From a virus: a stretch of 24,496 nt of DNA. The translations under genes were made by a program, and so were the position numbers. Positions 6,866 through 22,756 of the stretch are shown here, one piece after another. A model generated the notes under the pieces. It searched no databases, was not told where the DNA came from, and saw only the letters and a list, made by a program, of their open reading frames with translations. The stretch is from positions 1 through 24,496 of the IMG/VR virus record IMGVR_UViG_3300042398_001160, one strand, 5' to 3'. The number at the start of each line of letters is the position of its first letter. Positions within the stretch are counted from its first letter, which is position 1.

Positions 6866-6884
6866 TTTGTATATATAAGTATAT
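6866..6884 (-). promoter_or_regulatory. Repeated AT-rich element upstream of the 127-residue coiled-coil gene, candidate late promoter
   Basis: Exact second copy of the 19-base sequence at 3625-3643 (minus strand ATATACTTATATATACAAA), ending 21 bases before the ATG at 6844 and touching the stop codon of the upstream kinase gene by one base. Its placement would let the 127-residue gene be transcribed apart from the glycosylation operon. Promoter function is inferred from repetition and position only. Confidence 0.45.
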
Positions 6885-7636
6885 TATTTTTTAGTTTTAA
6901 ACACAGAAACTCCTTTTTCTTTTACAACTTCACCAGCACAATGATTTGCCCATTCAATTGATTCTTCTATGTTTTCGGAATCTAAGTATTTAGATATAAA
7001 TCCAGCTACAAATGTATCACCAGCACCACTAACATCAGCGGTATCTACGGATTGTACTTTAAATGTTTGTGTTTTGTACATAGCACCACCCCTATCTAAT
7101 GTACATATAATTTTGTCAAATAACCAATCATTTTCTTTTATAACTCCAAAGTTGTTTTGAAATTCTTGTCTATTTACTTTGATAAATGTAATATCCTTAC
7201 ACCAATCTCCAAGCCTTTTCTTTGTATCCAAAATAACCAAGCTATGCAATGATGCTATTGTATTGATATCTTCTTCTTTTAAAAATCCCTTACAATAATC
7301 CGATATAACTACTGCATCGTATTTTAGCAAATCAGGCAAGTCGTAAATATCTATTCTATTAGTTGTATCATTCTCATCAACTCGTAAATACAGTTCGTTT
7401 GTATCTTTATTTACATACCTTGTTTTAGTAATCATTCCTTTATCAAAATATGTATCAACATCCAAACCCATTGCCATCAGGTTATTAGCAGTGTTACCGG
7501 CCATACCCAATCCATATGTTTCACTAATTGGAACAAAAACAGGTCCATTTCCTTCTGGAGATTTTCTTTTAGATACTCCGTATTTAAAAATATCCGTACA
7601 TACTTCTCCAATAACTAAAACTTTATTTTCCATCAT
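6884..7636 (-). CDS. D-glycero-β-D-manno-heptose-7-phosphate kinase, HldE domain I-like (PfkB family)
   Basis: 250 residues. PfkB/ribokinase fold matching the kinase half of HldE (RfaE1), which phosphorylates heptose-7-phosphate at C1. Seen: GEVCTDIFKYG near the N-terminus, KRKSPE (23-28, cf. RISPEAPVPV of HldE), GLGMAGNTANNLMAMG (42-57), SDYCKG (112-117, cf. SDYxKG) and the PfkB signature VSGAGDTFVAGF with the catalytic Asp at 207. Usual HldE kinase domains are about 320 residues, so this is a compact version, but the substrate and ATP motifs are kept. It has two adjacent ATGs (7636 and 7633); both overlap the end of the adenylyltransferase gene, so translation is coupled. With that gene it would give ADP-heptose; the isomerase GmhA and phosphatase GmhB are not in the window and would come from the host or elsewhere in the genome. 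Confidence 0.88.
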   Translation of the reverse strand: MMENKVLVIGEVCTDIFKYGVSKRKSPEGNGPVFVPISETYGLGMAGNTANNLMAMGLDVDTYFDKGMITKTRYVNKDTNELYLRVDENDTTNRIDIYDLPDLLKYDAVVISDYCKGFLKEEDINTIASLHSLVILDTKKRLGDWCKDITFIKVNRQEFQNNFGVIKENDWLFDKIICTLDRGGAMYKTQTFKVQSVDTADVSGAGDTFVAGFISKYLDSENIEESIEWANHCAGEVVKEKGVSVFKTKK

Positions 7637-8012
7637 TCAATATCTTAGTTGTACTTACACCTTCTATCTTTTTAAAAAATTCAATATGAGGTATGTATTC
7701 TACTCCAATTATTTCTTCATGTTTATAATCATCACCAATTACCATAATATCAGGCTTCCATTCATATATTCTGTTAATAAGTTCATCATCCGTATCGAAA
7801 GATACAACAGAATCAACATAACGAATAGATGTGATAAAATCCATCCTATCAGATAAGCTGTTAAATGGTCTTGTTTCCCCTTTCTTTTCACTAACTCTTT
7901 TATCCGTGTCCAATCCCACTCTAACAACTCCGAATGATGAAGCATGTTCAAGCAAACGTATATGCCCAATATGTACAATATCAAAAGTACCATTTACCCA
8001 AACTTTTTTCAT
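7623..8012 (-). CDS. D-glycero-β-D-manno-heptose-1-phosphate adenylyltransferase, HldE domain II-like
   Basis: 129-residue cytidylyltransferase-fold enzyme matching the C-terminal half of HldE (RfaE2), which makes ADP-heptose from heptose-1-phosphate and ATP. Seen: NGTFDIVHIGH (8-18, HxGH), KKGETRPFNSLSDRM (cf. LKGDSRPVNPLEQRM of E. coli HldE), DSVVSFDTDD (cf. WVVSFEEDT), PDIMVIGDDYKHEEIIG (cf. PDLLVKGGDYKPEEIAG) and EGVSTTKI (cf. CSTTNI). The glycerol-3-phosphate cytidylyltransferase TagD is the main alternative (same length and some shared motifs), but the RPxN, VVSF and DYKxEEI(I/A)G features and the adjacent heptose kinase favour HldE. In most bacteria the two HldE halves are fused; here they are separate overlapping genes in reverse order (transferase first). 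Its ATG overlaps the stop of the heptosyltransferase as TAATG. Confidence 0.87.
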   Translation of the reverse strand: MKKVWVNGTFDIVHIGHIRLLEHASSFGVVRVGLDTDKRVSEKKGETRPFNSLSDRMDFITSIRYVDSVVSFDTDDELINRIYEWKPDIMVIGDDYKHEEIIGVEYIPHIEFFKKIEGVSTTKILNDGK

Positions 8013-9160
8013 TATAAGAACTTTTCTAATTCTTTTATAACCATTTCTGATGTTATAGTTTTAGTACATTCGAATTGTCTTTCAGTTCCTTTATGGTCAG
8101 GACACCAGTTCCAATCACCAGCATCTAATTTAACTCTATTAAAACATCCTTCGCATTTTCCCTCAGGCGCGCCAATCCTAACACAATCTTCCATCTCCGC
8201 CCATTTGTATGAGAATCCACTTATAATAACAGTAGGTACATCCAATGCCCAACTCAACCAACTCAATCCACTACCAATACCAATAAATGCTTTTGATTTT
8301 TTCATTTCATCCATTACCAATTCAATTGGTCCGTTTGGATGTTGAATTATTCCTGTTGGTAATTTATTACCCATATAGTTATCACCTTCTTTGGAAAGTA
8401 ATCTAACTTTATAACCTCTATTATTTAACCAATCTACCACATCCTGCCAACCAGTTGGATTATTCCAAAATTTAGATTGAGCAGTACCATATGTTGCGAT
8501 ACAAACCTGCTTTAAATCATTATCAATAGCTACTGTTCTTTTTTTAACCTTAGGTCTAATTTCTTCAAAATCCAATCCTAATATATCAGATGCCATTCTT
8601 TGCATAGTAACTGATTTTGGGTCTTTTGGATTTTTGAATAAATTAACAGAACCATTTTCATTATAAAACAATCCAACACAATACATACCATAGATATCAG
8701 TAACAGCAACGCCAGGTGTAACAAATTCAATATCAGGATATCTAGTACTAAACATATCATTCATAAAGGTAGATACTATTACTTGTGCTTTATGTTTTTT
8801 TCTAAATTCTTCAACGTAAGGAATCCATGCTAAACTATCCCCCAAAGCTTTAGAATCCATTGCTATGTATATTCTTTTATTTTCAGCATTGTAAACTGTT
8901 TCATACCATAATTTTCCGTTTTCGTAAATTACAATTTTCCACTCAATAAAATATTCAATACTACATCTACACCAACAATTGTTTTTTATTGTATTGGTAT
9001 AACATATTTCTCCTGTTTTATTATTTATGAACTCAATTTTATAATCGGCTTCTTTAGGTCCTTTTACTTCAACAAAAGGTCCATTTATAAAATGATAAGA
9101 AACCTGATTTTGAATTTCTCTTACATTATTTTTTATTTTAACTAAATTATCGTATATCAT
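8012..9160 (-). CDS. TibC/Aah-like (BAHT family) protein O-heptosyltransferase
   Basis: 382 residues from the ATG at 9160 (TAATG overlap with the upstream stop); an in-frame TTG at 9169 would add three residues. GT-B glycosyltransferase related to GT9 heptosyltransferases, most like the autotransporter heptosyltransferases that transfer heptose from ADP-D,D-heptose to Ser/Thr. Seen: an N-terminal β-rich region with CWCRC (about 62-66); KALGDSLAWIPYVEEF with the Asp (D108) in the position of the GT9 catalytic base; QSKFWNNPTGWQDVVDWL; IGIGSGLSWLSWALDVPTV, the C-terminal donor-binding region; and near the C-terminus four cysteines, C336-x2-C339-x13-C353-x11-C365, matching the pattern of the TibC iron finger. 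The two downstream genes supply the expected donor. The acceptor is unknown; phage fibre proteins nearby are candidates. Confidence 0.85.
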   Translation of the reverse strand: MIYDNLVKIKNNVREIQNQVSYHFINGPFVEVKGPKEADYKIEFINNKTGEICYTNTIKNNCWCRCSIEYFIEWKIVIYENGKLWYETVYNAENKRIYIAMDSKALGDSLAWIPYVEEFRKKHKAQVIVSTFMNDMFSTRYPDIEFVTPGVAVTDIYGMYCVGLFYNENGSVNLFKNPKDPKSVTMQRMASDILGLDFEEIRPKVKKRTVAIDNDLKQVCIATYGTAQSKFWNNPTGWQDVVDWLNNRGYKVRLLSKEGDNYMGNKLPTGIIQHPNGPIELVMDEMKKSKAFIGIGSGLSWLSWALDVPTVIISGFSYKWAEMEDCVRIGAPEGKCEGCFNRVKLDAGDWNWCPDHKGTERQFECTKTITSEMVIKELEKFL

Positions 9161-11322
9161 TAACTCCAAGTTTTAATTGTTTCATCTATTAAAGAATACC
9201 CTTCGGCCTGCTTACAATAAACTTTATTTGTGGTATATCTTAATTTTGGTTCTTTATAAAATACATCAGTCAACCAAATATCAAATCCTTCCCAAGGGGT
9301 ATCATTAAATCTATCAACCCACCATTGTTTAGTTTTATTTGGAATTAAATATGCGTGTGCTAAATCCTGATTTGCTGCTGTCTTTGAAAAATACTCATCA
9401 ATTCTTTCTTTATTCATTGAACTATTATTAGCAAGTCCCATATAATATACATCATCTCTTTCGGATAAAAAACATGCTCTATTTACAATCTCAACAAATT
9501 CTTCCAATCCAGTATAGATAAATGCATCAGCTTCAAATATTAAAGTATAATCATAGTTATCATCCATTGTTTCCAATGCTTTTCTATGTGCACTAAAACA
9601 ACCATAATGTCTGCCTGTTAAAGGTCCTAAACCATTTCCAAAGTTTCCAGGTTTATCTGAAATATGTTCCGCTCTTTTACAAAATTCAGATGGTGGTAAT
9701 CCTTCGTATGGTTTATTCACCATTGGCAAGTAATCTATACCATACTTTGCCAATTGCTTTATAGATGCCATGCTAACTCTTTCTCTAACATCTTCAGGTT
9801 TAGTCAATAAATGTCTAACTTGAATTTTTGGTTTTTTACGAATGAATGAACGGAATCCTTTTTCAAATTGTTTATAAAAATATTCATCTGCAGCTTGAGT
9901 AACTCCGTGAAACACACCATAATCATCTCCACTAACAATACCTCCAGGTTTTACTTTATTATACCAAGCTTTTAAATCTTCCATTAGAGCATCGTATGAA
10001 TGACCAGCATCTAACATAAGATAATCAATACTTCCATTTGCGAATTGATTTGATGCATTCTTAGATGTATCTTTAATCATATTAATATGACCGTAGTTAT
10101 CAGATAGAATTGAATTATCAACAAATTCGTAAAATATATCTCCCGCAAAAGAACCTACAATTTCCTGATGGATATCTTCATCATCCGTACCTTTCCAAGT
10201 ATCAACAGTTGTAAATTGAATATTCTTTTTAGATTCTCTAATTTGTTGTGCCATATAGTTTGTTGATTTACCAAACCAAGCACCCACTTCAACAAATACA
10301 TCATCATTACCAGCTGCTTTAACTACATCAGTATAAAGGTCTTGATATGCAAACCAACCTGGTATTTCATTAAATTCAGGTTTCAGTTTATCTAAAATAT
10401 ATCGTTTGGTTAATTTCAAATCAGCATTGATATATTGTACCAATGGATTATTATCATATGTGTCCAAATATGTATGTAACTTTCTAAACAAAGAAGGCAT
10501 CTTAAATGAAAGTGCTTCCTTAACGGAAAGTGGATTCAATTCCAATGTTGATGAAAAATAAAAAAGGTCACATGCTGCATAAAATGTATCAACATCATCT
10601 CGTTCACCCCATATTACACAATTGTCAGGTTTATGTTTCATCAATGGTAACCAATAATGTTCATAGTTCATAGCCTGATTTCCTACAAAATGAAATTTAA
10701 TTTTATATTTTTCTAATTGTCTTGCTATTGAAAATATTTCGGCTTGATTTTTGCCAGGTGAAAATAAACCAACATTCAATACATGCTTATAAGTTGGGTC
10801 TAATCCCAACAATTCCATAGATTGTTTTTTATCAAACGTATAATCTTCTATTGGATATTCCCATAATGTAGTTTCAATACCAGTATCTTCAAATCTTCTT
10901 CTACTCCATTCGGATACTAAAACATATCTATCTGGATGATATACTATATCAGCTGGGTTTGTAAAAGAACCATGTGTTGTTGCTAAAATAAAATAAGTTC
11001 TATCCTCTCTGAATATTTTATCCAAAACAAAAGTAGGTAAATCAAATTGTGGAATCTCCTGAAAATGTATAATATCCGGATTAAATTGTTCTATCACTTT
11101 CAATACTTCAGATTTATCATCACCTAAAGTATGTACTACTGCTAAAGATTTTATTCTATTTTTTTGTACTACAAAAGCAGTACCTCCACTATTATTTAAT
11201 TCTACAACTTCAATATCAAAATCTTTGATGAAGTGTTTTACTTGCTTATATGTGTATTGAGGTTGTCCACCAGTAGATAAATGCGGACATATGTAAAGTA
11301 ACCTTTTACGTGTTTTTTCCAT
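9160..11322 (-). CDS. Three-domain glycosyltransferase-methyltransferase-glycosyltransferase fusion
   Basis: 720 residues, three recognisable enzymes. Residues 5-315: GT-B, GT4-like glycosyltransferase with STGGQPQYT (16-24), VLNVGLFSPGKNQ (181-193) and an E-x7-E motif (E261, E269 in LELNPLSVKEAL). Residues 325-500: class I SAM methyltransferase of the Methyltransf_24 type, with VEVGAWFGKS (344-353), TVDTWKG (372-378) and LDAGHSYDALMEDL (437-450). Residues 505-720: GT25-like glycosyltransferase with YGCFSAHRKALE (573-584) and LIFEADAF (594-601), the equivalent of the EDDA metal-binding motif. Likely builds and methylates a short glycan. It is the first gene of the cassette behind the Bacteroidota-like promoter at 11341-11372, and its TAA overlaps the heptosyltransferase ATG. 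Acceptor and sugars cannot be told from sequence. Confidence 0.87.
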   Translation of the reverse strand: MEKTRKRLLYICPHLSTGGQPQYTYKQVKHFIKDFDIEVVELNNSGGTAFVVQKNRIKSLAVVHTLGDDKSEVLKVIEQFNPDIIHFQEIPQFDLPTFVLDKIFREDRTYFILATTHGSFTNPADIVYHPDRYVLVSEWSRRRFEDTGIETTLWEYPIEDYTFDKKQSMELLGLDPTYKHVLNVGLFSPGKNQAEIFSIARQLEKYKIKFHFVGNQAMNYEHYWLPLMKHKPDNCVIWGERDDVDTFYAACDLFYFSSTLELNPLSVKEALSFKMPSLFRKLHTYLDTYDNNPLVQYINADLKLTKRYILDKLKPEFNEIPGWFAYQDLYTDVVKAAGNDDVFVEVGAWFGKSTNYMAQQIRESKKNIQFTTVDTWKGTDDEDIHQEIVGSFAGDIFYEFVDNSILSDNYGHINMIKDTSKNASNQFANGSIDYLMLDAGHSYDALMEDLKAWYNKVKPGGIVSGDDYGVFHGVTQAADEYFYKQFEKGFRSFIRKKPKIQVRHLLTKPEDVRERVSMASIKQLAKYGIDYLPMVNKPYEGLPPSEFCKRAEHISDKPGNFGNGLGPLTGRHYGCFSAHRKALETMDDNYDYTLIFEADAFIYTGLEEFVEIVNRACFLSERDDVYYMGLANNSSMNKERIDEYFSKTAANQDLAHAYLIPNKTKQWWVDRFNDTPWEGFDIWLTDVFYKEPKLRYTTNKVYCKQAEGYSLIDETIKTWS

Positions 11323-11373: not shown

Positions 11374-11643
11374 TTATTCTGCGATAGTTACAGTACCTTC
11401 AACCAAATCAATTTCTCCATTTGGATAAATCTTTTCCAATTCAGCAAGATATTCGGTATATTGTTTATTTAGTTCATCAAATTCTCCTTCGAATTTAGAA
11501 ATCAAAGTATTGATTCTAGATAATTCTAAAGTCAAATCTCTAACTCTTAAATGACCTTCTCCGATATTTAAAACAGATTCACTTATCTTATTTTGTAAAT
11601 TTGTAAGCTTTTCTATTTGCTCATCTGTCAATTTTTGTACCAT
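11374..11643 (-). CDS. Small coiled-coil protein, paralogue of the gene at 6461-6844
   Basis: 89 residues, almost entirely helical and charged, with a heptad-like pattern from about residue 8 to 70, ending in IYPNGEIDLVEG (72-83) and a short β-like tail. It aligns without gaps (offset 15) with the 127-residue protein at 6461-6844 but lacks that protein's N- and C-terminal extensions. It starts one base after the stop of the hydroxylase gene region (stop at 11645-11647), so the two are probably co-translated, and it is separated from the glycosylation operon by a promoter-like gap. I do not recognise a function; related small coiled-coil proteins with a Y-G/P-x-G-x-IDLxxG end are frequent in marine phages. 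Confidence 0.78.
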   Translation of the reverse strand: MVQKLTDEQIEKLTNLQNKISESVLNIGEGHLRVRDLTLELSRINTLISKFEGEFDELNKQYTEYLAELEKIYPNGEIDLVEGTVTIAE

Positions 11644-11644
11644 A

Positions 11645-12202
11645 TTATTTTATTTTAAATTTATTTTCTCTTACCCAAACAATTGCTATGTATTTTGTTT
11701 GAGTTTTTACAGGCAATCCAGCATGAAAGCTTTCTGGGTCTAATGTGCCATCTTCATTCATATTTCTCCAAATTAGCATTCTACCTTCTCTTGGAGTAAC
11801 TTTTATTTTTTTATTTGGAAATTCCGTTTCACCACCAGTGTAATTATGATTTAAATAAATTAAAAATGAAAACGGTCTATTACCTGCTGTTCCCATAGAA
11901 TCTTTATAATATTGCTCATTTGGATGAAAATAATCGTGGTGTGGTTTATACTCACCTCCAATATCATATTTTACAATGTGAATATTTTCTTGGTTTTCAA
12001 CAGGTAATCCACTTTCTTTTGCAATAAAATTTATAATTTTTTCGGTAGTTGGTGTTGATTCATACAACCAACTATTATCAGCAGTACGATATCCATCTAT
12101 TTTTGCCCCCAATGTGGTTGCTTTTTGCATTTGCTTAGTACCCATATCTATGAGTTCCAAACATTCTTCTTTTGTTAGAAAATTATCAATTATCTTAATC
12201 AT
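11645..12202 (-). CDS. Prolyl-4-hydroxylase-like 2-oxoglutarate/Fe(II) dioxygenase
   Basis: 185 residues, a complete single P4Hc-type double-stranded β-helix domain. Seen: GYRTADNSWLYES (37-49, cf. vRTSxxxWL), IVKYDIGGEYKPHHDYF (76-92) with the metal ligands H88 and D90, FLIYLNHNYTGGETEFP (113-129), ESFHAGLPV with the distal ligand H160, and K170 ten residues later in KYIAIVWVRE, the expected 2-oxoglutarate-binding position. No signal peptide, so it acts in the host cytoplasm. Viral and bacterial members hydroxylate proline in proline-rich peptides or ribosomal/elongation factors. Its gene starts 70 bases after the stop of a protein with about fifty residues of Pro/Ala/Thr repeats, which makes that protein and the 705-residue one the obvious candidate substrates (inference). 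It is preceded by a variant copy of the repeated AT-rich element. Confidence 0.9.
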   Translation of the reverse strand: MIKIIDNFLTKEECLELIDMGTKQMQKATTLGAKIDGYRTADNSWLYESTPTTEKIINFIAKESGLPVENQENIHIVKYDIGGEYKPHHDYFHPNEQYYKDSMGTAGNRPFSFLIYLNHNYTGGETEFPNKKIKVTPREGRMLIWRNMNEDGTLDPESFHAGLPVKTQTKYIAIVWVRENKFKIK

Positions 12203-12215
12203 AACATATTAATTT

Positions 12216-12234
12216 GGTGTATATATAAATATAT
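12216..12234 (-). promoter_or_regulatory. Variant copy of the repeated AT-rich element before the prolyl hydroxylase
   Basis: Minus strand ATATATTTATATATACACC, matching the element at 3625-3643 and 6866-6884 at 16 of 19 positions and ending 13 bases before the ATG at 12202. The opposite strand contains TATAAATA, the T4 late-promoter consensus, but in the wrong direction for this gene. Function is inferred. Confidence 0.35.
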
Positions 12235-12250
12235 AACTTTTGGATTAAAC

Positions 12251-12272
12251 AATAAAAAATCACATTTTTATT
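12251..12272 (-). terminator. AT-only stem-loop directly after the stop of the 281-residue gene
   Basis: AATAAAAA (12251-12258) and TTTTTATT (12265-12272) are exact inverted repeats with a six-base loop, abutting the stop codon at 12273. An all-A/T eight-pair stem is weak; it might act as a terminator or protect a 3' end, or be chance in an AT-rich gap. Confidence 0.25.
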
Positions 12273-13118
12273 TTATAAACAAGATCCACAATTAACTCCA
12301 GTTGTAGCAGGAACAAATAATGTATAATTTGCAGGGCCAGGATAAGCTCCCAATCCAACTACAGACCATATATCCCCACTATATGATACACAACCAGGAT
12401 TACTTCCTGCAATTGCTTCATAAGTATATTGAGCTCCCGTATATGCTCCCGCACCAGTACAAGGTTCATAATCCCAATATTCATATACAACAGGCGGTGG
12501 AGCTGCAGGTGGTGTTGGTGGGGCTGGACATGCACTACAATTCGTTCCTACATAGGTAGAACCATCACCCAAATCAATATCAAAAGAAGGACCAAATGTT
12601 TCTTCGGTTATTCTAACACAAACACCCGGTGTGTCGGTTTCAAATACGCTGAAAGCTACCTGGTCAACAGTAAACCTTAGAACCACAGGAGTTGCACTAA
12701 AACAATATTCACCACTATAATAGAAATAAGATGATGCTGCTGGAGTTGGTGCTGCTGGCGCCGGAGTTGGTGCTGCTGGAGCTGGGGTTGGTGCTGCTGG
12801 CGCCGGAGTTGGTGCTGCCGGTGCTGGTGTTGGAGCTGCAGGTGCCGGAGTTGGTGCCGGTGTTGGGGTTGGTGCCGGAGTTGGGGCGCCCGTTACACTT
12901 ATATCTTGATAAACTGATGCACATGTCCCAGTACCTTTTACTCTAACAGAAGTTGTACCATCAGGTACACTTAATGCATATCCACTTACCAATGTTGCTT
13001 TAGCAACACCACTAGCTACCGCAGTTGCATAACTATCGTAATTGGAAAAAATATCTAATGTAGATACCGTTGCTCCAAATGTTCCTGCTGCGTATGTTAT
13101 GTTTACCCAAAATGCCAT
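12273..13118 (-). CDS. Proline-repeat, Cys-rich adhesin-like virion protein (281 residues)
   Basis: No family firmly recognised. Residues 1-77: small β-rich (Ig-like) domain starting MAFWVNITYAAGTFG, with no signal peptide. Residues 78-128: Pro/Ala/Thr linker containing five exact copies of APAAPTP (92-126). Residues 131-197: domain with C139, C167, C194 and C197. Residues 198-217: second Pro linker. Residues 218-281: second domain with C220, C243, C277 and C280. Both Cys domains share the layout C-x(~25)-C-x(~30)-C-x2-C, which also occurs once in the neighbouring 705-residue protein, suggesting disulfide- or metal-stabilised modules. Bead-and-linker architecture and position after the tail-fibre gene suggest a fibre or head decoration protein. 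The linker is a candidate target of the hydroxylase encoded next and of the glycosyltransferases. Leader AATAATTATATACA has no Shine-Dalgarno sequence. Confidence 0.8.
   Translation of the reverse strand: MAFWVNITYAAGTFGATVSTLDIFSNYDSYATAVASGVAKATLVSGYALSVPDGTTSVRVKGTGTCASVYQDISVTGAPTPAPTPTPAPTPAPAAPTPAPAAPTPAPAAPTPAPAAPTPAPAAPTPAASSYFYYSGEYCFSATPVVLRFTVDQVAFSVFETDTPGVCVRITEETFGPSFDIDLGDGSTYVGTNCSACPAPPTPPAAPPPVVYEYWDYEPCTGAGAYTGAQYTYEAIAGSNPGCVSYSGDIWSVVGLGAYPGPANYTLFVPATTGVNCGSCL
12741..12845 (-). repeat. Five tandem 21-base units encoding APAAPTP
   Basis: Codes residues 92-126 of the 281-residue protein. The peptide unit is identical five times while third codon positions differ between units (for example GCC/GCT/GCA for Ala, CCA/CCG/CCC for Pro), so the repeat is kept at protein level and is not a fresh DNA duplication. 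Confidence 0.85.
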
Positions 13119-13156
13119 TGTATATAATTATTATTTTTTTCTATTTTATTATTAAT

Positions 13157-15274
13157 TTATGGAGTGGGACAAGGGGAACATCCTTCAGGACATGTTTCAC
13201 CGAAATATTCTGCACAACCAGCTCCACAATCACACCATACACTAAATCCTGCTTCAGGTGATGGTGTTGGTGTTGGTGCTTCAGGTGTTGGTGTTGGAGC
13301 CGGTGTTGGTGCTGGTGCAGGTGTTGGTGATGGACTTCCAGCATAACATACTGCTCCACCACTCAATACTCCGGATGTAGAATACCAAACACTACCACCT
13401 ATAGCGTAATATCCATCCGTAGGAGTTCCAGTTCCATTGGAGTTATTATATATTGAAATACCATTTGAGGTAGGGTCATTATTCTGATTGTATTTCACAA
13501 CATAATCAGCAATTTCCCAATTTGTACAAGCTATATCAGGATCAGCACCATGGAATCCGTAATTCAATGCATTCAATACTGGTGCTGCCGGTGCTGGCGT
13601 TGGAGCCGGCGTTGGTGTTGGTGTTGGTGGTGGTGCTGCTGGCGCTGGAGTTGGAGCAGGAGTTGGTGCCGGCGTTGGTGCCGAAATTGGTGGTTCACCA
13701 GGAGGTATTTCTTCTGATTGAGGTGGTGGTGCTGTTGGTGTTGATATTGGTGATGGTGTTGGTGCCGGTGTTGGTGCTGTTGGCGGACCAAAGCAATAGG
13801 GCTGACATTCCATTAGGTCTGCGTATATTCCCAAACCAGGTCCAATATATGTACATGTACCATCAACACAATCCCAATCTAAAGAAGATGCAGGTGGTGG
13901 TGCTGCAGGTGTTGGTGTTGGTGCTGCAGGTGTTGGAGTTGGTGCTGCCGGAGTTGGAGTTGGTGCTGCTGGCGCCGGAGTTGGTGCTGCAGGTGCCGTT
14001 ACTTGTGATGCCGTACCACCACTTATTGTACAATCCGCACAATCAACAACAACGTTTCCTAAACTTCTACTACCATATGAATCATACAATACAACTGCAT
14101 ATGTACCATTTGCTAAACTAGCTGGTCCATTTCCAGCTCCAACAGTATAAGAACCAGCTCCATTAAGAGTAAAGTAATATCCAGTACCAGTACCACCAGC
14201 TACACTCGTCACATCGATTCTAGCATTTGTTGCTGTGAAATCGATACAAGTAAATCCAGCCGTACCAGTTGGTGCTTCATAACATGCAATTGTTTCAGTA
14301 GAAAGTACACTAACGTTTCCAATACTATCATATAATCTAACAATATATGAACCATCTGCTAATCCAGTTGCACCAGTTGCTCCAGTTGAATATGAACCAG
14401 CTCCATTTAATGTGAAGTAGTATCCTGTTCCAGTTCCACCAGCTGGCGATGTTACTGTAATCTTACCACCTGCGTTATTTGTAGATGTACATACCTTTGC
14501 AACAGTTCCACTTGGTGCAATATAACATGCTAATGTTTGTGATGTTAATGCTGCAGAATTTCCACCATCATCATATAAATTCACAGAGTATGTACCATCT
14601 GCTAAGCTATCCACATTTGTTGCAGCTGCTCCAGCTATTCCATAACTACCTGCTCCATTTAATGTAAAATAATAAACACCAGTACCACCAGAAGGAGTTA
14701 CCGTTATTCTACCATTTTGTCCACCATTATCTAAACAAGATTGTGCTGATGTACCACTTAAAGCAGGTAAAGATGAATTACAAGAAGTACAAGTTAGATA
14801 AGCACTTATTACAGAAATACTCGTCCCATCTACTAATGAACCTGTTGTATCTTGTTCAACTATTGTATAACAATATCCAGATGGGTATGGAGACCCAAAT
14901 CGTATTGCCATATTATTTGAATAATTACCAAACGGAGAAACAGATAGGTATTTATATCCACCTGTACCATTGCATCTAATTACTTTTAATCTTTGTGGTG
15001 CACTTGATGGAGGTGTGTATGGTGGTGGTGGTGGAGTTGGGCCGGGAGTTGGGGGTGGGGATGGTGGTAATTGACTATAAACTCTCCATCTACGAGATTC
15101 AACTCCATCTATTATTGTAAAAGTACCTAAATCCTGCACTTCTGCTTCGTTTGGATATGTCAATGAGCTTATCCTACCTACAAAATCAATACCACCACCT
15201 CTAATAGTGACATTAATTTGAGGTCCAGTATTACCAGCCGGTTGTACCCATCCTACGTTTCCTTCTCTAGCCAT
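13157..15274 (-). CDS. Multidomain proline-linker protein with SprB-like repeats and Cys-rich modules
   Basis: 705 residues arranged as beads on Pro/Thr/Ala strings. 1-66: β-rich N-terminal domain (MAREGNVGWVQPAGNTG), probably the virion attachment part. 68-93: Pro linker. 97-165: Cys domain (C101, C135, C162, C165) of the type seen twice in the 281-residue neighbour. 180-415: three Ig-like repeats of about 80 residues, each with GGTG..YYFTLNGAGSY, a L(A)(D/N)G(T/S)Y strand and a LYD end, resembling the SprB repeat of Bacteroidota surface adhesins. 427-462: Pro linker. 468-494: C-x4-C ... C-x3-C mini-domain. 497-565: long Pro linker with PTPAP units. 566-645: unrecognised domain. 647-673: Pro linker. 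681-702: dense Cys cluster (seven Cys). No signal peptide. Located just downstream of the tail fibre, so a receptor-binding or fibre-associated role is likely; hydroxylation or O-glycosylation of the linkers is inference. Confidence 0.82.
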   Translation of the reverse strand: MAREGNVGWVQPAGNTGPQINVTIRGGGIDFVGRISSLTYPNEAEVQDLGTFTIIDGVESRRWRVYSQLPPSPPPTPGPTPPPPPYTPPSSAPQRLKVIRCNGTGGYKYLSVSPFGNYSNNMAIRFGSPYPSGYCYTIVEQDTTGSLVDGTSISVISAYLTCTSCNSSLPALSGTSAQSCLDNGGQNGRITVTPSGGTGVYYFTLNGAGSYGIAGAAATNVDSLADGTYSVNLYDDGGNSAALTSQTLACYIAPSGTVAKVCTSTNNAGGKITVTSPAGGTGTGYYFTLNGAGSYSTGATGATGLADGSYIVRLYDSIGNVSVLSTETIACYEAPTGTAGFTCIDFTATNARIDVTSVAGGTGTGYYFTLNGAGSYTVGAGNGPASLANGTYAVVLYDSYGSRSLGNVVVDCADCTISGGTASQVTAPAAPTPAPAAPTPTPAAPTPTPAAPTPTPAAPPPASSLDWDCVDGTCTYIGPGLGIYADLMECQPYCFGPPTAPTPAPTPSPISTPTAPPPQSEEIPPGEPPISAPTPAPTPAPTPAPAAPPPTPTPTPAPTPAPAAPVLNALNYGFHGADPDIACTNWEIADYVVKYNQNNDPTSNGISIYNNSNGTGTPTDGYYAIGGSVWYSTSGVLSGGAVCYAGSPSPTPAPAPTPAPTPTPEAPTPTPSPEAGFSVWCDCGAGCAEYFGETCPEGCSPCPTP
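13256..13336 (-). repeat. Pro/Thr/Ala-coding low-complexity repeat (C-terminal linker of the 705-residue protein)
   Basis: Codes residues 647-673, alternating SP, TP, AP and EAP dipeptides. Locally GC-rich in an AT-rich genome; + strand reads as GGTGTTGGTGCT-like units. Confidence 0.75.
13580..13786 (-). repeat. Long Pro/Thr/Ala-coding repeat (central linker of the 705-residue protein)
   Basis: Codes residues 497-565, dominated by TPAP, TPTP and APAAP units, interrupted by an acidic QSEEIPPGEPP spacer. It separates a Cys mini-domain from the unrecognised 566-645 domain. Confidence 0.75.
13889..13996 (-). repeat. Tandem APTPTPA-coding units following the SprB-like repeats
   Basis: Codes residues 427-462 with a seven-residue period (AAPTPTP, one unit AAPTPAP), the same period and near-identical unit as in the 281-residue protein, pointing to common origin of the two linkers. 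Confidence 0.8.
14030..14737 (-). repeat. Three tandem Ig-like (SprB-type) repeat modules
   Basis: Codes residues 180-415 of the 705-residue protein. Copies begin near residues 180, 262 and 343 and share GGTG(T/V)(G)YYFTLNGAGSY; copies 2 and 3 are the most alike. Each copy starts and ends near a Cys (C180, C250, C262, C331, C343, C412), so inter- or intra-module disulfides are possible. Confidence 0.75.
15039..15060 (+). other. Potential G-quadruplex on the template strand
   Basis: Runs GGG, GGG, GGGGG and GGGG separated by 2, 4 and 1 bases fit the G3+N1-7 quadruplex pattern. It lies in the Pro-coding linker (residues 68-93) of the 705-residue gene, on the strand used as template for transcription. 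It could simply follow from CCN proline codons. Confidence 0.4.
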
Positions 15275-15295: not shown

Positions 15296-18200
15296 TTAAA
15301 TTTTTGAACTACTAATATATGCTTCTAAATTTTCTACCTTTTCCATTAAAGTTTGAACGGCTTTTGTTAAAAGTACAGTCAATCTATCATAGTGTACACT
15401 TCTTGGTATAGGAGTTTCTTCTTGTTCATAATTTAAAAATTTTCTTAATTCAGGATGTTCATCCAAATCTTCTGCTAAAAATCCTGGCATTTTTCCCATA
15501 TATTCTCTTGGGTTTTCAAAAGAAAAAGTATTGGAATAATCATAAGAACCAGAACCTTCCATATTTTCACCATCTTTTGGTACAAATAGAATTGGTTTTA
15601 ATTTTTTTATAGAATCATATGCACTTGATGGATATTCTTCTATTTCTGTCTTATATCTTCTAGTAGAACTATCGTATGTAAGTCTGTATCCGGTAATTCC
15701 TAAAGCAGTTTGATTTGGTCTCAAACGGCCGGCATCACCACCAATAGGATTATAAGCTGGAGGGTCTTGTAGAATTAAAATGGATTTATTTCCATCAGTT
15801 CCCATTCGTATTCCATCAGTTATGTAATCCGTACCAATCCATCCTAAATTTACACGTATATTGTTTCCTAAACCAGAACAATAGATATCACCATCATCAA
15901 CTTGAATTGCTCTAACATCTGTACCAGTGGCTGTGTTTGCAATTCTTATCCCCGGTGTAAGTGCACCACCATTTGTTTTAATATCTACAATTGGAGCAGT
16001 TGTAGTTCTTTTAATTGAAGCGTAGTTGTTAGTATCGCTCAATACAATCATTCCATCTCTACCAATTTCTGTTTGGTCCAATGAAAGTGTGGGTACTATT
16101 GAGTCGGGAGTTATCTGTCCATAAACATTTAGTACCGACCCATAGGGAACGAATCCATATAAGTATGTTACGGTATGAAAATAATAAGTACCAGCAGTTG
16201 GAAATGTTACTACAAATGTAGATGAATTATTACTGGTAGATACTGATTCGTTTGGTCCATTCACATACGCACCATATGCTAGGTTGTAATGTAAAAAATT
16301 TGTACCACTACGAGTTGGGTTTGTCCAACCTTCTATCGTCACACTAACTGATGCATATCCGCTAGTAAAATTACTATCAGTTATTATCCCTATCGCATCA
16401 CTTCCGAAGCTCGGAGTTGTTATTGTATATGTACCAGGTGTTGTAACGACAACCCCAACAGTATCAAGTGTCTCATGGTCAAAATCAATTCCACCACCAT
16501 AAACTGTGTAAGGACTAAAGTAAGTACCAAAATCATACGAGTCTTGTGCTTGGACAGTTACAGAAGTTGCTAATGCTGGGACTGTAATTAAACCTTGCTT
16601 AATAAATACCCTAGGTACATTACCAGCATCCGAAATCTTAATTTGTTTATTACCTGCATCTAAAACAATTTGCCCACTATTATGTTGGAAATTTCCGTCC
16701 AAAACTTCCCAATCACCAATTTTAGATGTAAAATTATCATCGGTTTCAATTTTTCCTCTAATTGTTAAAGTGGAGTTATCCCATCGCAAATATGGAGGTT
16801 TTTGACCCACTGGATAATGTACATCTTCTGGGTTGTGTCCTAATCTAAACTGTCCATCGGTTTGCATAAAAAATCCCGGTAGAGAACCAGTTAATAGTGA
16901 GGTTGCATTAGCACTTCTGATATATCCTCCAGTTCCGGCAGTTCCTTCAACTCCCATAACCAAACCACGAGTAATGGTTGCATCTTGCGCCAATAATATA
17001 TCAGTTGCCACCGAACTGAATTGTGCTCCAAATGATTCCCAATATACTGAACTTGGTGCTGTTGGTAATTGGTTTGTTGAGTTTAATTTAGCTACATAAA
17101 AATTGCCCAAATATTTAACTACATCTCTCCTAACACCAGTTTGGAATATATAAGCAATTGCAGAATTCCATTCACCTCTATATACAACACCCGGTCCAGT
17201 TGCACCATTACTTCCGGATTGTATGTAACTTCCCCAAGGACCTGCGCCAGGATAACCAGTAGTTGCATTTGATGAATTTGTAGATACATGAGAAAATGGT
17301 GATGTGCATATCCAACTTGAACCACTATAAGATGCTATATCATTATTGTAATATTCAGTAGCACTTGCCCATGCACCTCTTAACATTGGTTCATTTACAC
17401 CTGGCGTAGTTTGTCTTACACCACCAACTATATATAAATTACTACCATCCCATTTAAGAGCTTTACTACCATCATTATTTCTAATTGAAAATCTTCCGGT
17501 AGTTCCGTTTGGTACTGGGTTTTCGTATATACCTAAGAAAATACCAGGTTTATCATAACCAATAACGCCTGTTGTTACCTGGTCACCACTCAATCCAATA
17601 GTACCACTTTGTCCCATAGCCATATATGGGTCATTACGTCCTCCAGCTAATACAATATTTGCAAATGCACCTGTTGTATCTTTTGTACCAATGTTTAAAG
17701 TATTTTTAATATAAGATTCTTCAAATATTGCAATCTTAGCTGCTACAAAAAATTCTTCATCTCCCAAATACTGCCAATAAGCAGTATCAGTTTCTAAACC
17801 ACTTGGTTGTTGTGCACCTACCGTAGCAGGTCCACTTCCACTTACAGCTGCATAATATCTTAAAGTAGATGAATATGGGTTATAGTTTACAGCATCCCTT
17901 CTTTTATTTGTTGTTTCAACTGCACCTATATAATCAATTGAACCAGTCCAAGGACCTCTAAATACAATACCAGGACCAACTTGCCCCTCATAACTCAATG
18001 ATATAGATTGTGTTTTGTATAATTTTCCCAAACCTTCACAATCTACTTCATATACAATAAATCCAGTTGAGTAGGTTTCAGGATATGACCAATCCGTAAT
18101 ATTTGCTAAAGTTGCTACATTATTAACAATAGGAACGTAATCACCTGGAAGTAAATTACCAGCCAATGTTAAATGAGATGACTTTGAATATACTTTTACT

Positions 18201-21200
18201 GTGTATTGATTTTTGTATCCGGTTGTTCCAAATATTGTTGTTTGTGGTGAACTAAAAGATGTACTACCCGTCAATACATTATTTCCTCTAGTTGCTGATA
18301 TAGTTGTACCAGTTCCATTAAATGTAATTTGTCCAGATACTTTATATGTTATACTAGATGCCTCATTACTTAAAAATGCGTTATATGAACCAACACCTTC
18401 AATTTGAACATTGATTGATTGAGTCATAAACTGAGTTGCTCTAGCTCCTTCAAAATCTACTTTATAAACAACTTGTGCCGATGTATTTACACCCGGAGTT
18501 GTCCATCCAGTTATATTTGCTATTGTTGCTGGATTTCCAGTTAATCTATTTGCAGCTGCAAGTGTTATATATGGTGATTTGGAATGTATTGATGCTGAAT
18601 AATATCCCAAATAACCAATGTTTTCATATTTTATATTTTGAACCATTGTACCAGCACCATATGTACTTCCTGTTATGTGAATTAAATCAACCCCTGATTT
18701 AAATGCTTTTACATCAGTACCTGTACCAGTAAAGGTTACATCCCATATATTAGCTTGTATTGAACAATTATCATTTGTGAGTTTGGAAGTAAATGAATCT
18801 GCACCATCCTTAACACCAAATATAGTAACTTCATCTATTGCTCTAACAATATCACCATTTCCATCTCTCATCTCAACTCTCCAAACAGCAGATTCACCAG
18901 GAGATGTTGCTTCATCAGGATATATTGTAAGTTTATTACCTTCCGCTGAGTATGGTGCTATTGCCGAATATGCTCCATATGTTAATGTATCAGGATCATA
19001 TTTAAAAAACTGATAACGTGTCTCATCAATAGATGATGAAAAGTTAATAGGTGTTGCTTCAAAATTTATACTATCACTTGGTGTTATCAATACACCATCT
19101 TTATCAAATGTAACTGTGTTGGTTGATACTGCTAATTTAACAGTTCTTGCTTTTATTGCATCACTATTTTTTGTAAAACTTTGCGTTGTGAATAAATCAA
19201 CCGAACCAGTACGATGACCTGGTAACAATGAATATGGATATGCTTTAATTGAATAAAATGCACTAGCCGATATAGCAGGCGGTAAGAAGTTAGTAAATGA
19301 TACCGCGCCAATTGGAGTTGATACTCCAGCGGCAGGTAACACTAATGATTGTGTTTGTATATTACTACCACTTATAGATTGAAAATACCAAGTACCTCTT
19401 TGTTGCGATTGCGTATAAATTAAATTTTCAGCTCCTTCTTTTAAAACAATTGATGTATTTGATGGAGCATAACTTTTAACAAATCCGGTTTCAGTTGCTT
19501 GTAATATTACATTACCAGGTTCTAATAAAATTTCTATTGGTGGTGCACCATCAACCGCTTTAGTAAAGTTTTGTACTAAACTTTGAGTGTACTTAGAAGA
19601 TGTGTAATATGGATGGATTAATAAATCATAAGTTAAACTTGCACTTAACTCAGTCATATTATTTGCACCACTCATAATTAATGATGCCGTATAGGTTTTA
19701 TCAAGTAGAACAGAACCAGTCAATATCATTGATTGTGTTACGTGATTTAACCAAAACGTACCAGCTTCTTTACTTGCTGTAAATGACAAATACTTTGCAC
19801 CTTGTTTTAATTTTATTTCAGTATTAGCTGGTGTGTATGTTGATATGATACCTTTCGCATTTGCATTTAATGTTACATTAGCAGGTACTATTTCAAATAC
19901 AATACTTTCATCACCCGGCTTACCTTCGGGTACAATAGTAAAAGTTTTATCAACACTAATTTGTGTTAATGTATATGGTTCTGTATATGTGAACGTTGTT
20001 GTTAATACTTTACTTTGTGATAATGGCAATCCAACAAATTGGTTAAACGCTGTTGATTTAATTTCTCTACCAAGCTCATCAACTGCTACAATTGAAATAT
20101 CAGGATTCCAAGTATTACTTTTTGTTACATAATACATCCAATATTCAGGAACAAAATCCTTATTGATTGACATCGATGGATATACTTCAATTGATGAAGA
20201 TATTGGTGCTTCATTTGTACCCCTTAAATAAAAAGATGCGGTTACGGAGGCCGATGTTGGTCTAAACTGAAATTCATCTCTATACTTTATAGTAAAAGTA
20301 TCTGCATTATATGTTATAACAGGCGTATCTAAACCATCTTGTAAATCTTCTAAATTTATAGATGCTAATACCGATTGAGATACATTATATGCAAAATCGG
20401 ATGCAGCTGATGCTGAATTTATAAGATATACAATTCTTCTCTTATCTATTGAATCTCTATTAAAGATTGCATTGTAGTTAATTTCCTTTGTACCCAATTC
20501 ACCGGCAGATAACCCATTTACATAACCACTATTTGCGGCATATTCTAAGTTTACAAATTTTTCAGTATCACCAGAACTACTTAATATGTGTAGTTGTATC
20601 AGATTCCAATTTCTTTCAGGTCTAGAACCACTATATAATTCAATATCATTAATACCATCGATTCTAACTGCTTGAACCTCTAAACTTTGTGTACTACTAT
20701 TTCTAATTTGAGTTCCTCTGTAAGGTCTAATAATATGATTAACCCCACCAAACCCATCCAATACTGCGGTGATTGTTACACTATCAGTTACACCTTCACA
20801 CTCTCCCGTAAATGTTATTAATTGAACATCTATATCATCTCTACTACCTGTAAAATTTGCAACAGTTAAAAATGGAATACTTGGATTTGTAAAATCTAAA
20901 GTACCAGGAAAAACACCACCTACATATTGGGATGCAGATAAAACATTTCCAAAAAAATCTATTGAAGATGATGTAAAGTTTACAGAACCAGTTAATAAAG
21001 TTTTTTCAATATTAAAAGCTATAACTGTTGGTGGTACTGGTTGTGAACCGGAATCAAATTGAAAATATAATGATGATGGATTTAAATCTAACTTCTTTTC
21101 AATTCTTTGAATATTACCACCATCAAATGTTTTTGATAACTGATTCTCATCAATTGATATTGGTATTAAATTACCATTTACATCATAAAATTTGAAAAGA

Positions 21201-22756
21201 TATTGAAAAGTTTCAGCTATTAAACTTCTTGGTACTGATTGTACGAATGTTACTTCGTTTGGTGAGAATGAACTTTCTTGTGATGATTTTAAACTAATAT
21301 CCGCCACATACCAATCATTACCAATTACTTCAAAATATAATTTTGCATTAGATATATTATCAGCTTTAAAATTTTTGGTAATTAATGTTTTTTGTAAATA
21401 TGAATTTGATGTACCATCTACAGTAATAATATTTTGCTCAACTTGTGCAGTTGTTAAATTTCCATTAAATGTAGTTTCTTTAGAACCACTTATAAATACT
21501 CTAAGTTCGCCACCAGTATTTAATTTTCTAGTGTTAAAGTTTAACGAATACTCACCACCCTCTACTAAACTAAATGATTGTGTTGTATGAAAATAGTTTT
21601 TAGTACCAGATGCATCTAACTTAGATGAGTTATATAAATAATTTTGATTAAATTGTGAAGTTAATGCATTTGATGATGTTACCCAATAGTTTTTTAATAC
21701 ATCAGCTGATAATATACCATATACTTCTTCGTTCTTTTCTTTAGTATCATAATCTTTTAATATTTCATTTGATTCTAATATTACTTTTTGAACGAACTCA
21801 TAATCTCCTATTTTGGATAAAGATTTTCTATAAATGTCAACAGATACAACATCTCCAACAAAAGTTTCTAAATTGCTTAAAGTAATTTTTGCAAAAGAAC
21901 CAGTTAATGCTGTTTTTAAATTAGATGTGTTTGATGTATCTGCAAAAGATGCTGTGTATCCAACGTTATCCAAATTTTCAACATATCCATTTATTGTATA
22001 TGGGTCAGATACAAACAATTCTTTATTTGTAATTACCTGTTCTACTAAAGGATTCCAATTTAATTCAGGAAATGATAATCTAGTACCAACAATCGAACCA
22101 GTCCAATTTGTATTATCATTTATTGTTAATCTATAAAAAGTTGGTAGAGTATAATTTGTTAGTTTTTGTTGAGATTGTGGTGCAACCGCCGTTCCATCAA
22201 CACTACCAGTTTGAATTACAACAGGAGTTGCTGCTGAAAATAATGGTTTTACTAATTCATCTATTCTAACATCTGGTCTTTTATAAAAACGAACTTTATC
22301 TTCGTTCAATAAAAGTCTATTTACTTTAAATGCTCTTTCCCACTTTAAGTTGTAAACACTTTTCCATTCATCGGGTACATCTCTTACAACTCCATCGGAA
22401 TCTATATAAGTTTTTAATTCCCCTAATACTGTAATTTTGGCTTCTCCAATCGGAGTATCTTCATATATGTAAACAGCAACTACTTTAGATAATCCTTCAT
22501 AATATTCAGGAATACCATTACCAGGTTCCCAATATATAGGATTACCCTCTACATCTAAAATTTCAATTTTTATTTCAGTTGTTTCTTTTAAATGTTCAGA
22601 GCCTTCTATTAAAAATCCATTCTTACCACCCGTAAACGATTCTTTAAACTCTGTTATTCTAAAATATGTAGAGTTTGGATTACTATCAACCACAAACGTA
22701 TTATATGTGGTTAAATTTGGGTATAGCGTTTCGGGATATTTTTTTATTATTGCCAT
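15296..22756 (-). CDS. Giant modular tail fibre with C-terminal S74 intramolecular chaperone
   Basis: 2486 residues. N-terminal ~170 residues (MAIIKKYPETLYPNLTTYN, then YFRITEFKESFTGGKNG) look like a virion-attachment domain. About 945-1595: five tandem ~125-140-residue β modules, each following a DG/EG-containing hinge (KPGDESIVFEI, AVDGAPPIEI, GVKDGADSF and others). About 1595-1910: CBM5/12-like carbohydrate-binding motifs with the pattern RGxWxxxxxYxxxDxVxYxGxxY (RGPWTGSIDYIG, RGAWASATEYYNNDIASYSG, RGEWNSAIAYIF). From about 1930: β-rich shaft repeats. 2363-2486: peptidase S74 domain beginning SSTRRYK, with Ser 2364 and Lys 2369 spaced like the Ser-Lys pair that cleaves the chaperone after trimer folding, then GFLAEDLDEHPEL and a terminal coiled coil. 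Likely trimeric receptor-binding fibre that recognises surface glycan. A 21-base gap separates it from the 705-residue gene, so the two are probably co-transcribed. Confidence 0.9.
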   Translation of the reverse strand: MAIIKKYPETLYPNLTTYNTFVVDSNPNSTYFRITEFKESFTGGKNGFLIEGSEHLKETTEIKIEILDVEGNPIYWEPGNGIPEYYEGLSKVVAVYIYEDTPIGEAKITVLGELKTYIDSDGVVRDVPDEWKSVYNLKWERAFKVNRLLLNEDKVRFYKRPDVRIDELVKPLFSAATPVVIQTGSVDGTAVAPQSQQKLTNYTLPTFYRLTINDNTNWTGSIVGTRLSFPELNWNPLVEQVITNKELFVSDPYTINGYVENLDNVGYTASFADTSNTSNLKTALTGSFAKITLSNLETFVGDVVSVDIYRKSLSKIGDYEFVQKVILESNEILKDYDTKEKNEEVYGILSADVLKNYWVTSSNALTSQFNQNYLYNSSKLDASGTKNYFHTTQSFSLVEGGEYSLNFNTRKLNTGGELRVFISGSKETTFNGNLTTAQVEQNIITVDGTSNSYLQKTLITKNFKADNISNAKLYFEVIGNDWYVADISLKSSQESSFSPNEVTFVQSVPRSLIAETFQYLFKFYDVNGNLIPISIDENQLSKTFDGGNIQRIEKKLDLNPSSLYFQFDSGSQPVPPTVIAFNIEKTLLTGSVNFTSSSIDFFGNVLSASQYVGGVFPGTLDFTNPSIPFLTVANFTGSRDDIDVQLITFTGECEGVTDSVTITAVLDGFGGVNHIIRPYRGTQIRNSSTQSLEVQAVRIDGINDIELYSGSRPERNWNLIQLHILSSSGDTEKFVNLEYAANSGYVNGLSAGELGTKEINYNAIFNRDSIDKRRIVYLINSASAASDFAYNVSQSVLASINLEDLQDGLDTPVITYNADTFTIKYRDEFQFRPTSASVTASFYLRGTNEAPISSSIEVYPSMSINKDFVPEYWMYYVTKSNTWNPDISIVAVDELGREIKSTAFNQFVGLPLSQSKVLTTTFTYTEPYTLTQISVDKTFTIVPEGKPGDESIVFEIVPANVTLNANAKGIISTYTPANTEIKLKQGAKYLSFTASKEAGTFWLNHVTQSMILTGSVLLDKTYTASLIMSGANNMTELSASLTYDLLIHPYYTSSKYTQSLVQNFTKAVDGAPPIEILLEPGNVILQATETGFVKSYAPSNTSIVLKEGAENLIYTQSQQRGTWYFQSISGSNIQTQSLVLPAAGVSTPIGAVSFTNFLPPAISASAFYSIKAYPYSLLPGHRTGSVDLFTTQSFTKNSDAIKARTVKLAVSTNTVTFDKDGVLITPSDSINFEATPINFSSSIDETRYQFFKYDPDTLTYGAYSAIAPYSAEGNKLTIYPDEATSPGESAVWRVEMRDGNGDIVRAIDEVTIFGVKDGADSFTSKLTNDNCSIQANIWDVTFTGTGTDVKAFKSGVDLIHITGSTYGAGTMVQNIKYENIGYLGYYSASIHSKSPYITLAAANRLTGNPATIANITGWTTPGVNTSAQVVYKVDFEGARATQFMTQSINVQIEGVGSYNAFLSNEASSITYKVSGQITFNGTGTTISATRGNNVLTGSTSFSSPQTTIFGTTGYKNQYTVKVYSKSSHLTLAGNLLPGDYVPIVNNVATLANITDWSYPETYSTGFIVYEVDCEGLGKLYKTQSISLSYEGQVGPGIVFRGPWTGSIDYIGAVETTNKRRDAVNYNPYSSTLRYYAAVSGSGPATVGAQQPSGLETDTAYWQYLGDEEFFVAAKIAIFEESYIKNTLNIGTKDTTGAFANIVLAGGRNDPYMAMGQSGTIGLSGDQVTTGVIGYDKPGIFLGIYENPVPNGTTGRFSIRNNDGSKALKWDGSNLYIVGGVRQTTPGVNEPMLRGAWASATEYYNNDIASYSGSSWICTSPFSHVSTNSSNATTGYPGAGPWGSYIQSGSNGATGPGVVYRGEWNSAIAYIFQTGVRRDVVKYLGNFYVAKLNSTNQLPTAPSSVYWESFGAQFSSVATDILLAQDATITRGLVMGVEGTAGTGGYIRSANATSLLTGSLPGFFMQTDGQFRLGHNPEDVHYPVGQKPPYLRWDNSTLTIRGKIETDDNFTSKIGDWEVLDGNFQHNSGQIVLDAGNKQIKISDAGNVPRVFIKQGLITVPALATSVTVQAQDSYDFGTYFSPYTVYGGGIDFDHETLDTVGVVVTTPGTYTITTPSFGSDAIGIITDSNFTSGYASVSVTIEGWTNPTRSGTNFLHYNLAYGAYVNGPNESVSTSNNSSTFVVTFPTAGTYYFHTVTYLYGFVPYGSVLNVYGQITPDSIVPTLSLDQTEIGRDGMIVLSDTNNYASIKRTTTAPIVDIKTNGGALTPGIRIANTATGTDVRAIQVDDGDIYCSGLGNNIRVNLGWIGTDYITDGIRMGTDGNKSILILQDPPAYNPIGGDAGRLRPNQTALGITGYRLTYDSSTRRYKTEIEEYPSSAYDSIKKLKPILFVPKDGENMEGSGSYDYSNTFSFENPREYMGKMPGFLAEDLDEHPELRKFLNYEQEETPIPRSVHYDRLTVLLTKAVQTLMEKVENLEAYISSSKI
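15299..15670 (-). other. S74 self-cleaving chaperone domain of the fibre
   Basis: Codes residues 2363-2486. Ser-x4-Lys spacing in STRRYK, the PGFLAEDL motif and a C-terminal heptad region are those of intramolecular chaperone domains of tailspike and fibre proteins, removed by autoproteolysis once the trimer is folded. The mature fibre would therefore end near residue 2363. Confidence 0.8.
17970..19920 (-). repeat. Five tandem β modules in the fibre
   Basis: Approximate boundaries at residues 946, 1076, 1203, 1325, 1453 and 1596. Modules 1 and 2 resemble each other most (VPANVTLNANAKGIISTYTPANTEIKLKQGA against EPGNVILQATETGFVKSYAPSNTSIVLKEGA positions), as do modules 4 and 5 (SKSPYITLA / SKSSHLTLA; LANIT(D/G)W). 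Sequence divergence shows old duplications. Boundaries are read by eye. Confidence 0.65.

Follow-up and report, generated by a model that had tools for sequence, protein, structure and literature searches.

Several of the closest described systems to the one considered here include a prolyl 4-hydroxylase (P4H), a 2-oxoglutarate (2OG)/Fe(II) dioxygenase. In plants and algae, a secretory-pathway P4H acts on repeats of the extensin and arabinogalactan protein (AGP) type, with dedicated arabinosyl- and galactosyltransferases for the hydroxyproline (Hyp). Chlorella virus PBCV-1 encodes a P4H of its own, vCPH, which acts on proline-rich repeats; to our knowledge, no adhesin module is known beside it. 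In the Skp1 pathway of Dictyostelium and Toxoplasma, a cytoplasmic P4H (PhyA) modifies a single proline in a ubiquitin-ligase subunit, and the Hyp of Skp1 then receives N-acetylglucosamine (GlcNAc) from Gnt1, a GlcNAc-transferase of family PF11397 (PMC11570480). PHD-like and P4H-like folds are widespread in phages (Phold paper, PMC12774648), and no description of Hyp in phage virions, or of any link between a phage P4H and a substrate, was found in the literature searched. The P4H gene discussed here lies in a 24.5-kb metagenomic fragment from a freshwater virus assigned to bacteria (IMG/VR record IMGVR_UViG_3300042398_001160; all 24,496 nucleotides are called the window below), whose portal (PF07230) and T4-type terminase mark it as a T4-like phage by family profile matches. 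It stands directly after two genes for adhesin-like proteins with proline-rich linkers, and these genes probably form an accessory module whose P4H hydroxylates the linkers of the adhesins encoded with it.

The enzyme has 185 residues (11645..12202, minus strand) and all the marks of the family: H88, D90 and H160 as Fe ligands, K170 as the 2OG-binding residue, and a PF13640 match of 62 bits against a cut-off of 27. The HxD...H iron triad and the C-terminal 2OG lysine are invariant in an alignment with 26 phage relatives, and sequence and profile searches of the PDB matched prolyl 4-hydroxylases exclusively. An AlphaFold2 model (predicted local distance difference test score, pLDDT, 84) has as its top structural match 3gze, the structure of an algal P4H with (Ser-Pro)5; next come the Bacillus anthracis P4H, human C-P4H-II and vCPH. 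Both its sequence profile and its fold place the enzyme nearer to P4Hs than to the remaining 2OG oxygenases. Like vCPH (PDB 5c5t/5c5u), it is a virus-encoded P4H of the same fold, but vCPH belongs to a eukaryotic algal virus and is only distantly related in sequence; the cyanophage 2OG-Fe(II) oxygenases of phrog_61 share its PHROG match and superfamily at an identity of only about 24-38%. By its modelled fold and retained residues the enzyme looks like a competent P4H, of the XP-peptide-binding kind, with putative activity. In some relatives the P4H is fused to, or trailed by, a second 2OG-oxygenase-like domain (L004:9163-10215, L009:8849-9922, L010:9300-10406 and L013:10545).

The proposed substrates are encoded just upstream. 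The initial annotation, made from the sequence alone, had placed a complete P4H-type dioxygenase after two proteins with AP, TP and SP linkers, and this is borne out, positions included: genes for 705, 281 and 185 residues follow one another on the minus strand. The 705-residue protein (13157..15274) is a multidomain adhesin-like protein with a weak SprB-repeat match and four Pro-rich linkers, the longest at residues 497-565 (13580..13786) and the others at 14996-15067, 13892-13996 and 13250-13336; a Cys-bounded globular domain (residues 567-643; 13346..13576) adjoins the longest. The 281-residue Cys-containing adhesin-like protein (12273..13118) has an (APAAPTP)n linker at residues 78-129 (12732..12887), with five tandem APAAPTP heptads. 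Synonymous codons differ in each heptad, so the linker is not a fresh slippage product. The longest ([ATS]1-2 P)n run covers 49 residues here, where 1000 shuffled versions of the protein reach at most 12, and 34 residues in the larger protein, against a shuffled maximum of 10. The linkers have the [AST]P or PP repeats that define substrates of the Hyp-rich glycoprotein (AGP/extensin-like) type, and they share the AP/TP/SP composition of AGP glycomodules, the substrate class of the algal and plant enzymes that give the best fold match.

Is the pairing of enzyme and linker particular to this fragment? A scan seeded only by the heptosyltransferase gene of the window, described below, returned 80 related contigs. 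The five P4H contigs among them besides the window (L002, L003, L007, L008 and L062) all have Pro-linker proteins just upstream of the P4H, against none of the 45 P4H-less contigs in which the interval from the fibre gene to the glycosyltransferase (GT) fusion is fully covered (Fisher p 5e-7, counted per contig); in the latter the interval is usually 0.3-1 kb. The gene order follows without exceptions: fibre, small genes and GT where P4H is lacking; fibre, one or more Pro-linker proteins, sometimes a GT, P4H and GT where it is present. The association also crosses backbones. For every P4H contig at 57% identity or above (10/10), a protein with a Pro-rich linker is encoded no more than about 4 kb away, though the adhesin sequences differ. 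On other backbones, P4Hs of 57-62% identity (L004, L009, L010 and L011/L012) are preceded by a fibre ending in an S74-like segment and by an unrelated protein whose linker is (TP)n, (PPPPT)n or P11, and the same pairing is seen in L019 (P4H 49% identical) and L056/57/59 (48%). A terminase-seeded control set consisted mostly of contigs too short to reach the fibre region, and its sole P4H contig was already known. Two apparent Pro-rich features were discarded: an (SP)n DNA match in G005 (the L017 record), which reads the reverse strand of a (GE)n gene, and P-rich open reading frames with the motif APLIYPPGK in loci of the heptosyltransferase family, which are antisense to a core gene. Some Pro-linker proteins carry Hint/intein-like C-terminal segments that suggest self-processing adhesins (L011:6068-6772 and L362:4104-5444).

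The linkers can also be of another kind, and the enzyme then differs. P4H-positive phages have further copies of the Cys-bounded domain of the 705-residue protein, likewise flanked by Pro linkers. A search with this domain found a 64%-identical copy in L448/L460 with poly-Thr linkers on both sides, and the 82-kb record of L448 has no P4H. The gene after this adhesin is a fusion of zinc finger, glycosyltransferase and radical SAM domains, whose zinc-finger segment is also fused to the P4H of L019, downstream of a P12-linker protein. In L087, which belongs to the heptosyltransferase clade and has the backbone of the window, the slot holds a 229-residue Thr-linker adhesin followed by a GT of the L448/L460 family and no P4H; the first 68 residues of that adhesin are related to the N-terminus of the 281-residue protein (z 8.2). 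One lineage (L008/L062) combines the two: its proteins carry Thr as well as Pro linkers, and the P4H and the GT are both present. In a forward test, Thr-containing linkers were predicted beside this GT in G025, and found. These observations support, at the sequence level, the view that linker chemistry tracks the enzyme present, P4H with Pro linkers and a different GT family with Thr linkers. The latter, a GT-like family with a YxxWQ motif, lies beside Thr- or TP-linker adhesins and is sometimes fused to radical SAM/SPASM (L087:939-2936, L460:10900-13119 and L008:9046-9981). It has no Pfam match, and a by-eye resemblance to plant HPAT/SRGT enzymes found no support in Pfam and PDB profile searches and is not claimed.

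Several observations weigh against hydroxylation of the linkers by the P4H. The initial annotation had held that P4H homologues occurring as often without Pro-rich proteins as with them would speak against a link, and here the survey divides: the close homologues described above are all paired, while most of the distant P4Hs (about 45-55% identity) have no local Pro-rich neighbour. Some of the distant-P4H genomes, and only some, have XP-linker proteins far from the P4H (AP/TP in G014, TP and SP in G019, TP in G010 and G025) or a P-rich linker (G016); no multi-hit TP patterns occur in 30 P4H-less control records, where single TP-pattern matches look like chance or antisense. In the reverse direction, only two of 106 viral XP-repeat proteins have a P4H, a distant one, in the fetched flank, and the notion that XP linkers imply P4H was rejected. 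The 89-kb record of L239 has TP linkers and a YxxWQ GT without P4H. An unrelated 2OG-oxygenase-like protein of about 200 residues can occupy the same post-fibre slot with neither P4H nor Pro linkers (L116:4475, L129:2561 and L139:6934). Finally, the heptosyltransferase tree indicates two gains of the module, one of them certain, with one independent pair on well-supported branches, and the P4H tree lacks the resolution for counting gains; with about two lineages having gained the module, the co-insertion could be due to chance, and phylogenetic support is modest. Could the association then be hitch-hiking, with recombination at the fibre locus bringing P4H and adhesins as one cassette without a functional link? 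Few independent gains and a generally variable slot are what this would produce, but it fits poorly with the repeated pairing of P4H with unrelated Pro-linker proteins (L004, L009, L010, L011, L019 and L056) and with the enzyme-linker correspondence in L087, L448, L008 and G025, and it is very unlikely. Alternatively, the substrate of P4H could be some other protein, such as EF-Tu, a reported target of the B. anthracis and Pseudomonas putida P4Hs, and the enzyme would merely travel with a mobile adhesin cassette. The nearest sequence relatives with structures do include the B. anthracis P4H, with entry 5v7y titled as modifying EF-Tu, and distant phage P4Hs lie in non-structural regions without Pro-rich neighbours. 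However, this leaves unexplained why, on different backbones, close P4Hs go together with Pro linkers and why Thr-linker relatives lack P4H, and makes a non-linker substrate quite unlikely.

A fuller scheme was put forward in the initial annotation: a chain of substrate, hydroxylase and glycosyltransferase in which the linkers, once hydroxylated by P4H, receive sugars on Hyp from the GTs encoded downstream in the window. Hydroxylase and Pro-linker proteins do form one accessory module, set between the fibre gene and a core block; the part that did not survive is the role of the window GTs as a dedicated Hyp chain. All of these genes are adjacent on one strand, and the block includes a GT25-like domain, of a family that includes procollagen galactosyltransferases. 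In the clade, however, the order of fibre, 89-residue gene, GT fusion and heptosyltransferase is kept, and P4H and Pro linkers are nearly always lacking. Because relatives lacking both keep the same genes in the same order, the block cannot be dedicated to Hyp, and no Hyp glycosyltransferase coupled to P4H is found in the window. Scans with Pfam and other family models found none of the known Hyp-glycosyltransferase families in the window, including those dedicated to Hyp in algae and plants. Characterised TibC-type heptosyltransferases, moreover, modify serine (PMC4358343). A case for glycosylation comes from sister phages: in L010 (7585-8457) and L011/L012 (L011:6794-8698), a GT of PF11397, the Gnt1 family, lies between the Pro-linker protein and P4H, with 130 and 110 bits against a cut-off of 21. 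The arrangement recalls the Skp1 pathway, although that pathway modifies a single proline of one protein, and PF11397 is absent from the window locus and from the near-identical record G054. Across records it occurs in 5/47 with P4H and 0/45 without (p 0.056), and its position beside P4H is, on these small numbers, suggestive. Glycosylation of Hyp is thus plausible in phages of the L010 and L011/L012 type, whereas a full chain built from the window's own GTs is unlikely.

What, then, does the downstream block do? The three glycosyltransferase domains and the methyltransferase of the initial annotation are correct (GT4, GT25-like and GT9-type; Methyltransf_24), with one small core gene of 89 residues (11643-11374, or 11374..11643 on the minus strand) intervening after P4H. 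The first GT gene encodes a 720-residue fusion of GT4, Methyltransf_24 and GT25-like domains (9160..11322) that belongs to the core of the clade whether or not P4H is present. Its C-terminal domain matches PF01755 below the cut-off in the window, but PF01755 is found in 12/12 family members; the AlphaFold2 model of the domain has a pLDDT of only 45, and the GT25-like assignment therefore relies on Pfam matches that are weak but consistent. The second encodes a GT9-type enzyme of 385 residues (8012..9169) of the autotransporter-type protein O-heptosyltransferase family (TibC/Aah, BAHT), with 283 bits to TIGR04414 (cut-off 200) and an E value of 2e-53 to the TibC structure (PDB 4rap). It retains the four iron-finger cysteines together with Asp-110, Thr-226, Lys-230 and Trp-305 (residues as given in PMC4358343). 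It differs from the described members in being phage-encoded and independent of P4H, and in the position of the sugar-binding Arg-286, which is Val in the window enzyme and not Arg in ten relatives, in a stretch where the local alignment is uncertain. No autotransporter passenger adjoins it; its neighbours are the phage fibre, two HldE halves, terminase and portal. The HldE halves are a heptose-1-phosphate nucleotidyltransferase (7623..8012; phrog_7878, TIGR02199) and a heptose-7-phosphate kinase of the PfkB type (6884..7636; PF00294, TIGR02198), and these ADP-heptose genes, like the TibC-family identity of the GT9 gene, had gone unmentioned in the first reading. The block is a separate core glycosylation system, presumably for other, or additional, sites on virion proteins, and its O-heptosylation target may be a conserved protein of the virion, possibly the fibre. 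The heptosyltransferase is among the core genes of a freshwater T4-like clade, with 115 matching IMG/VR stretches, and occurs also in Microcystis phage Mel-JY01, where it is annotated as an FkbM methyltransferase, and in uncultured phages of 636-735 kb.

The remaining genes frame the module. In minus-strand order the window encodes a carbamoyltransferase, the fibre, the proteins of 705 and 281 residues, P4H, the 89-residue product, the 720- and 385-residue enzymes, the two HldE halves, terminase and portal. The fibre gene (15296..22756) encodes a long tail-fibre-like protein of 2486 residues that is core in the clade, with homologues in 54 loci and no Pfam match; by eye, its C-terminus resembles an S74-type chaperone. 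Upstream lies a NodU-like carbamoyltransferase (22844..24496; PF16861/PF02543, phrog_1601), a decoration enzyme whose 5' end is cut by the window edge; none of the other fetched loci has a relative of it, and it is therefore an accessory gene. At 3661-6426 a core protein of 921 residues combines an N-terminal nucleotidyltransferase with a ligase-like KxDG motif.

In a model of linker hydroxylation, a hypervariable site immediately downstream of the long tail-fibre gene would have taken up the genes for P4H and both Pro-linker proteins. During infection the enzyme would hydroxylate the prolines of the AP/TP/SP linkers, using host O2, Fe(II) and 2-oxoglutarate, and the modification would tune spacers of polyproline-II-like form, in stiffness or protease resistance, in adhesins presumably carried on the virion; the hydroxylated prolines may also supply hydroxyls for later glycosylation. 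More tentatively, aquatic phages could possibly share swappable cassettes, each with an adhesin and a following enzyme suited to its linker (P4H with Pro, YxxWQ GT with Thr, both with both), with Hyp O-glycosylated by a Gnt1-family enzyme in some lineages; this would be a prokaryotic-virus counterpart of the plant Hyp-rich glycoprotein and Skp1 pathways. The linker swap makes linker modification directly testable, and the phage O-heptosylation block offers a second testable protein-glycosylation system. If the P4H does modify the linkers beside it, a common orphan phage enzyme would gain a substrate, adhesin spacers would prove to be tuned post-translationally, and hydroxylated polyproline linkers could be made in E. 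coli with a compact pair of enzyme and substrate.

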